In this document: positions 56,394 to 64,000 of the stretch, piece by piece | Layout: the number at the start of each line of letters is the position of its first letter | Position numbering within the stretch: position 1 is the first letter of the stretch | Origin: Sphingopyxis sp. JAI108 | GTDB taxonomy: Bacteria > Pseudomonadota > Alphaproteobacteria > Sphingomonadales > Sphingomonadaceae | Length of the DNA: 64,000 nucleotides | Assembly (NCBI RefSeq): GCF_013410105.1 | Contig: NZ_JACCCJ010000001.1 | Coordinates: forward strand, 1,860,001-1,924,000 | Direction: 5' to 3' | Notes under the pieces: model-generated | The model's input: the letters and a program-made list of their open reading frames with translations, nothing else | Database searches by the model: none | What the model was told of the DNA's origin: nothing | Made by a program: the position numbers and the translations under genes

Positions 56394-57911
56394 GTGAGCC
56401 TCGAAGGGAGAGCCGCGGCGCTCGAAGCGCTGGCGCAGGGACGCGGCGCGGTCGTCTGGCAGCGGCTGATCGCCGACATCGAAACGCCCGTGTCGGCGGC
56501 GCTCAAGCTGATCGAGCCCGGGCGCGGCGACTGGGTGCTCGAATCGGTCGAAAGCGGCGAAACGCGCGGGCGTTACAGCCTGATCGGGCTCGACCCCGAC
56601 CTGATGTTCGAGGTGAAGCGCGACGCCGCACGGATCAACCGCGACTGGCGCCGCGACCGTGATGCGTTCGAACCGCTCGAAACCGGCGCGCTGCACGCGC
56701 TTCGCGACCTCGTCGCCGAATGCCGCTTCGACGTGCCCGACGGTCTGCCGAAGGCGCTCGCGACGCTCGTCGGCTTCTTCGCCTATGAGACGATCGGCCT
56801 CGTCGAGCGCATTCCGCGCGCGGGGGGCACGGGCCTCGGCCTGCCCGACATGGTGTTCGTGCGCCCGACGGTCATCCTCGTCTTCGACCGCCTTGCCGAC
56901 GAACTCTTCCTCATCGCGCCGATCTGGCCCGACGCCAACGGCGCGATCGACCGCATGATCGAGGATGCGCAGGAGCGGCTTGAAACGGTCGCCGCCCGCC
57001 TGTCCAGCGTCAGCGCGCACAGCGACCGTGCGACGACCGACGCACTGCCGGAAGCGATCGCGGCGAACCCTGCCACCGCGCCAGCGCATTTCGCCGAAAT
57101 GGTCGCTGTCGCGAAGGATTATATCGCGGCGGGCGACATCTTTCAGGTCGTGCTGTCGCAGCGTTTCTCGACCCCGTTCGACCTGCCGCCCTTCGACCTC
57201 TATCGCGCGCTGCGCCGTGTAAACCCCTCGCCTTTCCTCTATTTCCTCGACCTGCCCGGCTTCGCGCTGATCGGCTCCTCGCCCGAGATCCTCGTGCGCG
57301 TCCGCGACGGTGAGATCACGATCCGCCCCATCGCCGGCACGCGCCCACGCGGACGCACGAGCGCCGAGGATGTCGAGAATCGCGAGAGTCTGCTTGCTGA
57401 TCCCAAGGAACGCGCCGAGCATTTGATGCTGCTCGACCTCGGCCGCAACGATGTCGGTCGCGCGGCGATCGGCGGCAGCGTCACCGTCACCGACAGCTAT
57501 ACCGTCGAATTTTACAGCCACGTCATGCACATCGTCTCGAACGTCGTCGGCCGGATCGCGCCCGACAAGGACGCGATCGACGCGCTGTTCGCGGGCTTTC
57601 CTGCCGGCACGGTCAGCGGCGCGCCCAAGGTCCGCGCCTGCCAGATCATCGCCGAGCTCGAAGCCGATGCGCGCGGGCCCTATGCCGGCGGCGTCGGCTA
57701 TTTCGCGCCCGACGGCAATATGGACAGTTGCATCGTGCTGCGCACCGCCATCGTCAAGGATGGCGAAATGCACGTTCAGGCCGGCGCCGGCATCGTCGCC
57801 GACAGCGACCCCGCCTATGAACAGCGCGAGTGCGAGGCAAAGGCCGGTGCGCTCTTCGCTGCCGCCCGCGAGGCTGTGCGGTTGGCGGGCACGCCGGGAT
57901 ATGGCCAATAG
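56394..57911 (+). CDS. trpE: Anthranilate synthase component I
   Basis: Chorismate-utilising subunit of the first tryptophan-specific step. 505 aa from the GTG at 56394, two bp after the PpiD-like gene. The tryptophan feedback site region (WVLESVESGETRGRYSLIG, about residues 42-60) is intact. The catalytic C-terminal domain shows ALIGSSPEILVR, IAGTRPRGRT, LDLGRNDVGR and the GAPKVRACQIIAELE block. The glutamine-amidotransferase partner (trpG) and trpD/trpC are not adjacent; the next gene is on the other strand. The long upstream frame is a shadow. Confidence 0.94.
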   Translation: MSLEGRAAALEALAQGRGAVVWQRLIADIETPVSAALKLIEPGRGDWVLESVESGETRGRYSLIGLDPDLMFEVKRDAARINRDWRRDRDAFEPLETGALHALRDLVAECRFDVPDGLPKALATLVGFFAYETIGLVERIPRAGGTGLGLPDMVFVRPTVILVFDRLADELFLIAPIWPDANGAIDRMIEDAQERLETVAARLSSVSAHSDRATTDALPEAIAANPATAPAHFAEMVAVAKDYIAAGDIFQVVLSQRFSTPFDLPPFDLYRALRRVNPSPFLYFLDLPGFALIGSSPEILVRVRDGEITIRPIAGTRPRGRTSAEDVENRESLLADPKERAEHLMLLDLGRNDVGRAAIGGSVTVTDSYTVEFYSHVMHIVSNVVGRIAPDKDAIDALFAGFPAGTVSGAPKVRACQIIAELEADARGPYAGGVGYFAPDGNMDSCIVLRTAIVKDGEMHVQAGAGIVADSDPAYEQRECEAKAGALFAAAREAVRLAGTPGYGQ

Positions 57912-57984
57912 GGCGCGGCCGCGGCGGAGGCTTTGAAGCGTTGATTTGCAGGAAGGCGGTTTTCGGCCGCCAGCGACCCGCCCC

Positions 57985-59355
57985 TCAACCCTCGTCCCGC
58001 GCCGGCAGACTCAAGGTGAACCGCGCCCCCTGCCCTGGCGCGCTGTCGACCGTCAGGTCGCCATCCATCGCACGCGCCAGCCGGCGGGCGATGTAAAGCC
58101 CCAGCCCCGATCCGCCACTATCGGTCCGCCCCAGCCGTTCGAATTTCTCGAACACCACCGCCTGCTGCTCGGCGTCGATCCCCTGACCCTGATCGGCGAC
58201 GGTCACTGTCGCGCGGCCCTCTTCGCGGTCGACCCGGATCCATATCTGCGATTGGTCGGGTGAATAGCGGATCGCATTGCCGAGCAGGTTGAGCAGCACC
58301 TGCAGCACCCGGCGGAACTCGCCATAGGCCGGCGCCCGGTCGTCGCTGCGCGGCGCGTCGATGCGGATGCCCTTTTCCTCGGCCTTCATGCCGAGCAACC
58401 CGACGGCGCGGCGGGCAAGGTCGCCCAGGTCGATTTCATCACGCGCCGCCTTGAACCCGGGGCGCTCGATATTCTGAAGGTCGGCGAGATCATCAACAAG
58501 GCCGAGCAGGTGGCGCCCCGCATGCGCAATATCGCCAGCGTAGCGCGCGTAGTCGGCGCGAATTGGCCCGTCGAATTGTCCCGAAATCGTCTCCGCCGTC
58601 GCAATGATGCGGCTGAGCGGTCCACGCAACGCGCCGTCGATGCGGCGGCCGAACTGCGGATCCGACAGGGGCAGCGATCCGAAGGCCGGATCGACGAGCG
58701 CGCCGGGAGTCCTTTGTTCGATCGGGGGCGGTGCCTCGGCAGCGACCGCGCTTCCGCGAAAACCGGTGAAACGTCCCGTCGCGTCGAACAACGCTTCGCC
58801 GGCGAGCGTCATCACCATCTGCTCCACCCGGACGCGCTGGCCGTCGAAGCGCGCCTGTCGCGCGAGGCCGCGCAGCACGGGAAAACGGCCGTCATCGTCG
58901 GGTTGCAGCTCGAACAACTCGGAAAGCGAGCGCCCTTCCCAGCCCGTCGGAACCGGGGGGGCATCGGGGGCCGCACGCAGCGCGACGAGGCGTAGTTGCT
59001 GGTCGCACTCCCACGTCCAGCTTTGCGGAACCGCCGCGCCCTCGGCGATCGGCGGCATTTGCGGCTGGACCAGCGGCCGCGTCCGCCAGTCGGTGATCTC
59101 GAGGCTTGCGCCATCGGCATCGGGGGTGATGCGGACGAGCGCGTGGATGTCGCTGTGATCGTCGGCGGCATAAAGCGGCCGGCTGATATCGCGGTGGAGC
59201 CGCTGTGCGAGCGCAACGAGACGCGCGAGATGCGGCAGGGCGAGCGGCTTGTCGAGACCCGCGCCCGCGCGCTGCTGCAGGCGCAACAGCGGCGCGTCGG
59301 CGCTTACCAGCGCGCCCGACCGGTCGATGCGGCCGCGGACGACGCGCTCGCTCAC
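57985..59355 (-). CDS. Histidine-kinase-like protein without the phospho-acceptor His
   Basis: A 456-aa cytoplasmic protein (no membrane helix). Residues about 110-205 resemble a PAS-type sensor. Residues about 233-295 resemble the dimerisation helices of a histidine kinase, but the H-box reads FGRRIDGALRGPL, with Gly at 241 where His is expected. The ATPase domain is intact: N-box LLGNAIRYSP (about 357-366), G1 DQGQGI (388-393), F-box FEKFERLG and G2 GGSGLGLYIA (414-423). It could be an ATP-binding regulator or a pseudokinase. The GTG start overlaps the stop of the upstream gene (GTGA). Confidence 0.82.
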   Translation of the reverse strand: MSERVVRGRIDRSGALVSADAPLLRLQQRAGAGLDKPLALPHLARLVALAQRLHRDISRPLYAADDHSDIHALVRITPDADGASLEITDWRTRPLVQPQMPPIAEGAAVPQSWTWECDQQLRLVALRAAPDAPPVPTGWEGRSLSELFELQPDDDGRFPVLRGLARQARFDGQRVRVEQMVMTLAGEALFDATGRFTGFRGSAVAAEAPPPIEQRTPGALVDPAFGSLPLSDPQFGRRIDGALRGPLSRIIATAETISGQFDGPIRADYARYAGDIAHAGRHLLGLVDDLADLQNIERPGFKAARDEIDLGDLARRAVGLLGMKAEEKGIRIDAPRSDDRAPAYGEFRRVLQVLLNLLGNAIRYSPDQSQIWIRVDREEGRATVTVADQGQGIDAEQQAVVFEKFERLGRTDSGGSGLGLYIARRLARAMDGDLTVDSAPGQGARFTLSLPARDEG

Positions 59356-60275
59356 CGCGCACGGTCCGCGTCGTAAGATTTCATATCGTCGGCGCTGCCC
59401 ACCGCGCGCGCCGGCAGCATCGCCAGCGACGCCTCGATCGGCGCCAGCGCCATATTATCGAGCCGCAGCGGCGCGAACAGCGAGGGCAGCGCCGCGCTCT
59501 CCGCCGTCAGCAGCGCAAGCGCCATGCCGTCATAGCTGCGGCGATGCGCCGCCGCCGCGAGCGCGATCAGCACCGGCCAATCGTGCCGCGCAATCGCCGC
59601 AGCTGCAGCATCGGTCGCGTCCGCGCCCAAGGCCGCGTAATATGCGCCTCCCGCGTCCTCTATCCCGCTTTCCTTCGCTTGCCGTTCGGTCGCGGCGCGG
59701 ACGGCGTCGCCCAGTGCGGCGGCGCGTTTCGCGTCCTTGCTCACTTCTGCCAGCCGCCACGCGGCTATGTCGAGCAGCAGCGTGCGGAAAATTTCGCTAT
59801 CAAGGTCGGCGATCGCGATCGCCGGATTGCCGAGCGCATCGAACCGCCGGCGGTCGGCGATCTGCACTGCCAGATAGGCGCGGTCGAGATCGGGTAGTGC
59901 ATCCTCGACGGCCGGACCCTCGTCATTCGCTGCGGCGGGATCGGCGAGCAATGGCGGCGGGCTGCCGCGCTGTGCCGACTGTTCGCGCCAGCGATGTTCC
60001 TCGGCGCGCGCAAAGCAGATTCCGGCCAGCCGCGTGGCGGAAGGCAGTCCACCGCCCAGCCACTCGTTCCACAGTGCTGCGGGGTCGACGGACGGGTCGA
60101 GCCGCGCCGCCACCTCGGCGACCATCCGACGCGCGATCCCCAGCGACAGGGCGCGCTGCTCCTCGGTCAGCCGGCCCGCCTTGGGCGCGGCGAGATAATC
60201 CGCCAGCTCGCGCAGGCGCGCCGCCAGCGTCGGCGACGGCGGATCGATGCCGGGAGAGAAGAGCGATTCACTCAT
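59352..60275 (-). CDS. Unknown Ala-rich helical protein
   Basis: A 307-aa soluble protein, Ala/Leu/Arg-rich and predicted mostly helical, with no signal peptide, membrane helix or motif I recognise. A patch at about 100-125 (SAQRGSPPPLLADPAAANDEG) looks like a flexible linker between two helical parts. The ATG at 60275 fits, and there are 58 bp back to the membrane nucleotidyltransferase-like gene. Its stop overlaps the GTG of the kinase-like gene, so translation is probably coupled and the two proteins may act together. Confidence 0.65.
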   Translation of the reverse strand: MSESLFSPGIDPPSPTLAARLRELADYLAAPKAGRLTEEQRALSLGIARRMVAEVAARLDPSVDPAALWNEWLGGGLPSATRLAGICFARAEEHRWREQSAQRGSPPPLLADPAAANDEGPAVEDALPDLDRAYLAVQIADRRRFDALGNPAIAIADLDSEIFRTLLLDIAAWRLAEVSKDAKRAAALGDAVRAATERQAKESGIEDAGGAYYAALGADATDAAAAAIARHDWPVLIALAAAAHRRSYDGMALALLTAESAALPSLFAPLRLDNMALAPIEASLAMLPARAVGSADDMKSYDADRAR

Positions 60276-60333
60276 GCGCGTCCGCCAATATCAGCATGAC
60301 GTTAATAGGGCTTAAACCTTCAAGGCCTTTGTT

Positions 60334-61548
60334 TTACCGCGCCTCGGGGCGGCGCGCGAGGCGTAGCCAGAGCAGGATCTGAAACAGCGCCAGCAGCGGC
60401 AGGATCGCGAACATCAGCGGGGCAAAGCCGAACAGCAGCGCAGGCGCCAGCAGGATCCATGCCTCGTCCGCGTCGGGCAGCAGCCAGTGAAATCGCCGCC
60501 GCTCCCCCGAATCTTCGTAAAGCGCACGCGCGAGGAGGATCGCCGCGGCAAGGCACGGCGCGAGCGCGGCTTCGGAAAACGGCGGCATCTTCTGCCCCGG
60601 CCCGGCGAGCGACAGCAACCAGGGAAAGACTGCGAGCAGCACCCACGCAAAAGTGCGGATAATGTCGCGCGCGCGGTCCTGCGCCGCGCTTTCGGCACGA
60701 AACGCTGACAGGAAACGCATCGCCGCGAGCCCCAGTCCGCCGAGGATGGCGACAAGCGCGCCCGCCGCCGCGAGGCCGCTCGCCGCCAGCAGCGCGACCG
60801 CCACCCACAAGAGAGCGGTGACATATGGCAGATAGCGCGCGGTCGCCGGCGATTTGACCAGCAGCGGGCCCGCCAGCCGGATCACCGGCATCATGATCGC
60901 CGAACGGCCAAGCCCCATGCCGCCATATTCGACTTGCTGAAGGCTCGATTGCTCGATCAGCGCGGCGGTCGGGCGATCGGCGACGATCGCGATCTCGCCC
61001 TGCTCGAACAGCGCCGGCTCGCAATAGAGGCGCCGCGCACCCGCCTGCACCGCGAGACGCAGCAGGGTCAGCATCATGTCCCATTCGCCCGGCATCGCCG
61101 CGAGTTCGGCGACCATGGGCTGCGAGATCGAGGCGAGCCCGCCCCAGCGCCGCGTCGCGTCGATCCGCTCGAATCCCTGCGTCAGCATCGTGTCGCCGGT
61201 GACCAGGATCGCCGGCGATCCGGGCTTGGCGATCGCCGCATAATGGGTGCCGCCCGCGCGAAGGCCGTCGGCGACGAGGATGATCCTGTCGTCGCCCTCC
61301 ACCAGCGGGACGAGATCAGCTGCCTGGCGCACGGGCGTGACCTTGATCCCGCGGCGGCGGATGCGGTCGCAGGTGGCGAGCAATTCGCCGGGCACCGCAC
61401 CGACCGCGACCGCGATATGCGTCACCCCGACGTCGGCGAGGCGCGCCGCCTGGCGCTCGATCAGCGTCTCGCCGGCGACGGTGACGAGCGCGCGCAGCGA
61501 TCCGTCGGGCAACGTTTCGGAGGCGCCGACCAGCGCAATCAGGGCCAT
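60334..61548 (-). CDS. Nucleotidyltransferase-like membrane protein, probably catalytically dead
   Basis: A 404-aa protein. Residues 1-200 look like an NTP-transferase fold (ALIALVGASETLPDGSLRALV, TLIERQAARLADVGVTHIAVAVG), but the glycine-rich GxGxR nucleotide loop and the following PK signature are missing. Residues about 240-395 hold five to six membrane helices. The layout resembles the fused inositol-phosphate cytidylyltransferase/DIPP synthase; the segment LLVKSPATARYLPYVTALLW aligns with the LLxxTxITPNxVTLLSxL part, yet the catalytic DGVDGExAR-type motif is absent (AMRFLSAFRAES). The start at 61548 fits the first strand. The family call is inference. Confidence 0.6.
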   Translation of the reverse strand: MALIALVGASETLPDGSLRALVTVAGETLIERQAARLADVGVTHIAVAVGAVPGELLATCDRIRRRGIKVTPVRQAADLVPLVEGDDRIILVADGLRAGGTHYAAIAKPGSPAILVTGDTMLTQGFERIDATRRWGGLASISQPMVAELAAMPGEWDMMLTLLRLAVQAGARRLYCEPALFEQGEIAIVADRPTAALIEQSSLQQVEYGGMGLGRSAIMMPVIRLAGPLLVKSPATARYLPYVTALLWVAVALLAASGLAAAGALVAILGGLGLAAMRFLSAFRAESAAQDRARDIIRTFAWVLLAVFPWLLSLAGPGQKMPPFSEAALAPCLAAAILLARALYEDSGERRRFHWLLPDADEAWILLAPALLFGFAPLMFAILPLLALFQILLWLRLARRPEAR

Positions 61549-61670
61549 TGGCGCAAGAGTTTCTCTGCAGCGGGCATCGGCACGAAGCTTTAGGGCCGGT
61601 GAAGCGATTGGCAAGCCCCGCCATGCGCCGCGATGACGTCACGCCTTCACCTTATTTTCCTGTGCTTTCC

Positions 61671-61710
61671 GCGCCTTTTCGGTCCGCAAAAAAATCCCGG
61701 CGAAAGGCGC
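61671..61710. repeat. Inverted repeat in the gyrA leader region
   Basis: GCGCCTTT (61671-61678) and AAAGGCGC (61703-61710) form perfect 8-bp arms around a 24-base loop that contains a seven-A run. It lies 74 bp before the gyrA start, between the divergent genes. Function unknown; possibly an operator or a 5' UTR hairpin. Confidence 0.35.
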
Positions 61711-61783
61711 GAATCGCTGGCCTTTCCAGCCCCCATCGGCTAGGCAGAATCCATCTCCCGAAAGAGCAGAAAAAGGCCGGGTC

Positions 61784-64000
<2,217 letters not shown>

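Follow-up and report, generated by a model that had tools for sequence, protein, structure and literature searches.

DivL is a well-known pseudo-histidine kinase (PMC5361649, PMC4211667). It carries Tyr instead of the His, binds DivK and, with no kinase activity involved, regulates CckA (PMC4211667). The Sphingomonadales are reported to keep CckA-ChpT-CtrA, while DivJ-PleC-DivK are degenerate or lost (PMC2877005). Here we analyze a three-gene unit found in a 64,000-nucleotide stretch of Sphingopyxis sp. JAI108 (contig NZ_JACCCJ010000001.1, positions 1,860,001 to 1,924,000), referred to below as the window. The minus strand of the window carries, from nucleotide 61548 to 57985, three open frames named g1, g2 and g3, divergent from gyrA, which lies on the plus strand; an initial annotation made from the letters of the window had placed three minus-strand genes opposite gyrA, and the frames are indeed open there. 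The unit is, on balance, probably a CtrA-linked, DivL-like pseudokinase signalling module of the Sphingomonadaceae. Among named loci, it is most closely related to two from Sphingopyxis, with g3 identities of 83 and 81%. The features of the locus, all on the minus strand, are the following.

60334..61548, minus: g1, nucleotidyltransferase-like N-terminal domain plus membrane domain, 404 amino acids (open reading frame and domain scans)
60301..60316, minus: CtrA-type box TTTA-N7-TTAAC, between g1 and g2 (motif match)
60287..60292, minus: −10-like GATATT, 8 nt after the CtrA-type box (putative promoter element)
59352..60275, minus: g2, fast-evolving, putatively joined to DUF2336 through intermediates, 307 amino acids
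59352..59355, minus: GTGA, overlap of the g2 stop and the g3 start (sequence)
57985..59355, minus: g3, PAS-like N-terminal region, DHp without His, HATPase_c with intact motifs, 456 amino acids, GTG start
58633..58635, minus: Gly241 codon of g3, position of the phospho-acceptor His
58441..58653, minus: DHp region of g3, residues 235-305, with omega below that of the CA part in 9 of 10 pairs (see below)
57997..58329, minus: CA/ATPase region of g3, with N, G1, F and G2 boxes

The kinase-like protein g3 matches HATPase_c at 6.8e-30 and HisKA weakly, under the cut-off, and in its motif GALRGPL Gly241 stands where an active kinase would have the phospho-acceptor His. This column, read in 49 g3 copies, holds P in 26, G in 8, R in 6, Q in 3, E in 2, H in 2, A in 1 and S in 1; Tyr is found there in 0 of the 49, and the residue that follows is acidic in none of them. 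The absence of His that marks a pseudo-histidine kinase was thus found in 47 of the 49 copies. The ATP site has been kept: N356, N360, D388, G390, F402, G415, G417 and G419 are present in 49/49 copies, G392 in 48/49 and F405 in 45/49. Among 37 g3 copies HATPase_c was matched in 37 and HisKA in 33 (E<=0.1); the g3 of one locus (L114), a short frame, was excluded from the profile and alignment, named A5. At 17 DHp positions the same residue is found in at least 80% of the active forms and of the His-less forms. The protein lacking its His but with an intact ATPase domain that the initial annotation had described is therefore what the wider comparison returned. The same residues would suit a rather unlikely alternative, that g3 is a catalytic half-kinase which forms a heterodimer with a second histidine kinase and phosphorylates the His of that partner, the system being still enzymatic. 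Nine of the ten ATP-site positions are kept in at least 48 of the 49 copies and the omega of the CA region is only 0.008-0.095 over ten pairs, as such an activity would lead one to expect, but there is no His-bearing kinase among the three genes of the unit, and ATP may also be a structural ligand.

The possibility that g3 is the sphingomonad DivL was considered and rejected, since a separate DivL-like protein with DivL features is encoded in the same genome. This protein (L249, contig C1 near 461437) has the motif SYELRTPL, in which Tyr substitutes for the acceptor His, a C-terminal G2 box GGIGLAL, and DivL 4q20 as its best PDB match, at 1e-30. For g3, 4q20 ranks tenth among the PDB matches, and g3 shows no special closeness to either L249 or 4q20 when compared with other kinases. 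As the genome has its own DivL-like protein, g3 would therefore be a second pseudokinase. Another candidate for a kinase without His, picked up by a loose pattern (L238), was discarded because its sequence has the His motif MHDIKN when inspected by eye.

The origin of g2-g3 can be traced through relatives in which the His is intact. Seventeen genomes were picked from the g3 matches and the top 15 loci (L259-L273, of which two belong to the family of the window) were compared; in all 15 the kinase has an intact His motif (His-Glu) and a match to the g2 family lies directly upstream. All six upstream neighbors of His-bearing kinases that were scanned match DUF2336 above the cut-off. A midpoint-rooted tree built from 67 kinase cores groups all 37 A5 rows in a single clade (100/100), which is joined by the His-bearing L259 (97/99), all within the DUF2336-linked group (96/98). 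Because the A5 rows form one clade joined by a His-bearing kinase, the sampled rows fit one loss of the His. Judged from these sequences, g2-g3 derives from a DUF2336-kinase pair with an intact His. The initial annotation had counted normal catalytic motifs in close homologs as a point against its proposal. Such motifs do occur, outside the clade (the His in 15/15 of L259-L273, and the phosphotransferase motif in 6/11 relatives of g1, see below); they show the origin of the proteins and leave the conservation of the His-less and motif-less forms standing.

The initial annotation described g2 as an unknown helical protein, a description that needs correction as regards "unknown". The g2 of the window itself has no match to the DUF2336 model (PF10098), and this model is matched by 13 of 40 members of the g2 family at E<=1, the best at 1.2e-23. 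All 40 middle open reading frames examined fall in one family by iterated profiles, in a pool of 59. The protein can therefore be tied to DUF2336, putatively, via intermediate sequences alone. A literature search for DUF2336 family names, mostly without subscription journals, returned no paper. A second DUF2336-like gene, on the opposite strand and a few kb downstream of a His-bearing kinase, was seen in three loci (L286, L289 and L293); the second copy in L286 matches PF10098 at 1.1e-54.

Several of the His-bearing pairs lie near flagellar genes. In 7 of 13 fetched sister regions an FlgL-like gene precedes the DUF2336 gene on the same strand, at a distance of no more than about 3 kb, and FlgK is also present in two of those 7; the name FlgL is our reading of a 305-308-amino acid protein with a flagellin domain. 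Together with the CtrA-type promoter discussed below, this neighborhood is what would be expected if g2-g3 retained an old control of flagella or motility in which the kinase step had been made unnecessary, a reading that we consider very unlikely. Among the 166 genomes of the family with a strong g3 match, 73 have no FliG match, and strong g3 and FliG are not associated (odds ratio 0.69, p 0.48; draft genomes with a completeness of at least 90%). Since these 73 genomes lack a FliG match, flagella are not needed for the retention of g3, and a present flagellar role was rejected as the principal explanation on the basis of this table. No significant match to the g1 profile was found in 12 of the 13 fetched regions of sister-family DUF2336-linked kinases; in G270 the DUF2336 gene has a motif-bearing relative of g1 about 3.4 kb ahead of it.

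The preferred reading, that of a pseudokinase module, is also carried by the conservation of the three genes. When 60 genomes were searched, g2 was found in 34 of 36 of the same genus and in 0 of 24 of other families, and in the 30 same-genus loci returned g1 and g3 stand beside g2 in the same order (30/30; the g1 of L028 and the g3 of L030 are interrupted by contig ends). In the order as a whole (247 genomes), the profile built from g1 (A4) matches 194 genomes (1e-10) and that built from g3 (A5) 230 (1e-45). Among 186 genomes of the family the respective numbers are 181 and 172, with a strong g3 match (<1e-100) in 166; the 181 include motif-bearing relatives of the enzyme type (G123, G241, G270 and G166) as well as other weak matches. 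Forty further loci were fetched around g1 matches, 37 from other genera and three from the genus of the window (L080, L081 and L115), and g3 lies downstream of g1 in 35 of them and is lacking in 5. Both genes had places among the matches listed in 132 genomes, 117 of other genera and 15 of the same genus, and in all 132 g1 precedes g3 on one strand at a distance of up to 2 kb, with room for g2 in 126; genomes without the trio are under-represented in this set because weaker matches fall outside the matches listed. The trio is accordingly conserved as a unit well beyond the genus, a point that the initial annotation had left to be checked. No copy on a plasmid was found in PLSDB by megablast.

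Selection on g1, g2 and g3 is purifying. Over ten close same-genus pairs omega (the dN/dS ratio, by the Nei-Gojobori method, with dS up to about 0.9 in parts) is 0.041-0.169 for g1, 0.130-0.341 for g2 and 0.039-0.120 for g3, with no sign of relaxed selection. Within g3 the DHp part, which has just 71 codons, gave 0-0.063 and the CA part 0.008-0.095, the DHp value being the lower in 9 of the 10 pairs. Two of the three proteins lack catalytic motifs, as decaying remnants might, but omega is low, the frames are open and the architecture is uniform throughout the family, which makes decay extremely improbable; this reading was rejected as contradicted by omega. The initial annotation had opted for retention rather than decay, which is supported by conservation beyond the genus, low omega and the kept ATP site.

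The arrangement of the genes raises the question of how they are transcribed. The last two are coupled by GTGA, as had been proposed from the window, at nucleotides 59352-59355, and a 4-nt overlap of g2 and g3 is seen in most same-genus loci. A gap of 58 nt that contains a conserved promoter-like element separates g1 from g2, and because of this element g1 and g2-g3 may not form one simple transcript. Of the initial proposal of a single unit, the gene order was thus confirmed while the single transcript became doubtful. The element includes GGTTTA-N7-TTAAC, present between g1 and g2 in 30/30 same-genus loci; in the whole window TTTA-N7-TTAAC has a single match, with 0.01 expected. At least 8 of the 9 positions of the CtrA consensus used, TTAA-N7-TTAAC (PMC7200025), are matched in 30/30 same-genus loci and in 29/35 further loci, compared to Markov-shuffle expectations of 0.36 and 0.35, respectively; these counts are not independent, since the loci are related. 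Control stretches before g1 and before g3 gave 0/29, 0/30, 1/35 and 0/30. A G[CA]T[AT] sequence follows the box after 8-9 nt in 22/35 further loci. The genome of the window has the same motif ahead of its ctrA gene (416 bits against a cut-off of 350), and another genome has it ahead of a CcrM-like gene (614 bits, below the cut-off of 830); a similar box occurs near sister-family DUF2336 genes in 7/13, a count made without shuffle control. A sigma-70 promoter scan of nucleotides 57700-62000 found none.

Related boxes were also seen elsewhere. GGTTTA-N7-TTAAC has one site per genome in four genomes, at the g2 promoter where it could be placed, and did not define a regulon. TAAC-N6-TTAACC precedes a similar open reading frame of 174-175 amino acids in four genomes (L208, L216, L217 and L218); this frame carries ..EFASFT..EQRYI.RSLDIGLGR.DAFKLWAR.. 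or nearly so, and the one copy compared with NCBIfam has no match. In the genome of the window (L205, contig C2 near 52154) TTTA-N7-TTAACC followed by GCTAT lies shortly before an open reading frame of 172 amino acids with no NCBIfam match.

The first gene, g1, codes for 404 amino acids from the ATG used here, with an alternative frame of 426 amino acids from a TTG at 61614. The protein scores 18.9 bits with NTP_transf_3, below the cut-off of 27, and its C-terminal half has hydrophobic segments. The g1 set aligns with a group of relatives (A9) over 393 columns with an E value of 4.3e-39. PF01066 is matched by 5 of 8 of these relatives scanned, three scanned with NCBIfam match families of the inositol type below the cut-off (NF041135 in one or more), and one scanned with PDB matches 4o6m and 4mnd. 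The catalytic motif of CDP-alcohol phosphotransferases is DG..AR. As DG..[AS]R it occurs in 0/41 g1 copies of the trio and in 6/11 relatives. The nucleotidyltransferase signature, used here in its familiar form, is also absent, by eye, from relatives with an intact phosphotransferase motif. Consequently, the initial annotation of g1 as a nucleotidyltransferase-plus-membrane protein lacking catalytic motifs stands as to the absence, which is not special to the trio in the case of the nucleotidyltransferase signature. In two loci (L102 and L117), whose copies were placed in A9 and not in A4, the next gene downstream of a motif-bearing two-domain relative of g1 encodes a myo-inositol-1-phosphate synthase.

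It is quite unlikely that g1 is functionally unrelated and rides along with a working unit made up of g2-g3 alone. The separate promoter-like box before g2 points that way, as do family genomes with a g1-profile match and no g3 match (e.g. G146, G183 and G247; likewise G123 and G241, where the g1-like protein is of the motif-bearing enzyme type), but g1 is directly upstream in all 132 genomes, among the matches listed. This last point is qualified by the flanks, as gyrA was recognized in the short upstream flank of just 2/40 further and 2/12 named loci.

Starting from the conservation, synteny, purifying selection, missing motifs, ancestry and box described above, we infer a mechanism for the pseudokinase module, including CtrA binding, complex formation, the docking partner and the role of each protein, from its anatomy and ancestry. 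An active PAS-type histidine kinase beside a DUF2336 partner, near flagellar genes in several sister lineages, would have given rise to g3 by losing the acceptor His and the following acidic residue while retaining the DHp helices and the ATP site, and g3 would now work without self-phosphorylation on that His. A ligand or the ATP state, sensed by the PAS-like and CA domains, would set the shape of the DHp helices, and these helices would serve as docking site for a response regulator or an active kinase, in much the way that DivL engages DivK and CckA. The g2 protein would be the dedicated partner of g3, and g1 may supply a membrane anchor or a surface that senses lipids or nucleotides. If g2-g3 is transcribed from its own CtrA-type promoter, as is probable in this scheme, the module could be proposed as an output of the CtrA pathway, possibly with feedback. 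A regulatory or scaffolding function, as suggested initially, would agree with this scheme. It is also conceivable, though unlikely, that two catalytically silenced components, an enzyme of the inositol-lipid type and a DUF2336-kinase pair associated with the flagellum, became a three-part sensor through which the state of the pool of membrane lipids or nucleotides is coupled to the CtrA cell-cycle pathway, beside DivL as second pseudokinase.

Several observations weigh against a CtrA-linked, DivL-like module. The CA domain of DivL is reported to be dispensable (PMC4211667), and the fact that g3 conserves its ATP site points to a use different from that in DivL. In Sphingomonas melonis CtrA is dispensable for growth (PMC8116508). 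The middle gene is absent in L080, L081, L091, L114 and L115, and absent or without room also in G201 and G271; the trio is therefore not indispensable as three. TTWA-N7-TTAAC is not enriched genome-wide, with 7 sites compared to 17 for the reversed control, and TAAC-N6-TTAACC has 23 sites compared to 14 in six genomes, five of which were chosen for having it as g2 promoter, five of the 23 sites being those promoters. The acceptor column was read in 49 g3 copies, compared to the 166 genomes with a strong g3, and two of these copies (L084 and L090) have His there, without an acidic residue next to it; both nest inside the His-less clade, and their His looks like drift.

In the literature searched, mostly without subscription journals, we found no account of the module, which may be described elsewhere. 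The unit offers a case in which a kinase tree locates the loss of the His: relatives that retain it lie on one side and, on the other, a large clade in which it is almost absent, beside a DUF2336 partner. It lets one ask what a kinase does once phosphorylation stops, and whether sphingomonads carry an undescribed CtrA input or output.

Compared with known systems, g3 resembles DivL, the closest functional model, in its PAS, DHp and CA architecture, in the replacement of the acceptor His with the other boxes kept, and in a putative link to CtrA; the acceptor position is occupied by Tyr in DivL, whereas the g3 copies have Pro, Gly, Arg and others. The DUF2336-linked PAS histidine kinases of sister families share with g2-g3 the gene order, the clade and the DHp and CA residues, but unlike g3 they have the His-Glu acceptor motif. 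On the other hand, g1 is a motif-less homolog of two-domain nucleotidyltransferase-like/CDP-alcohol phosphotransferase proteins: it is homologous to the bifunctional inositol-phosphate cytidylyltransferase/CDP-alcohol phosphotransferases (NF041135, PF01066; 4mnd, 4o6m), but in the trio it lacks DG..[AS]R.

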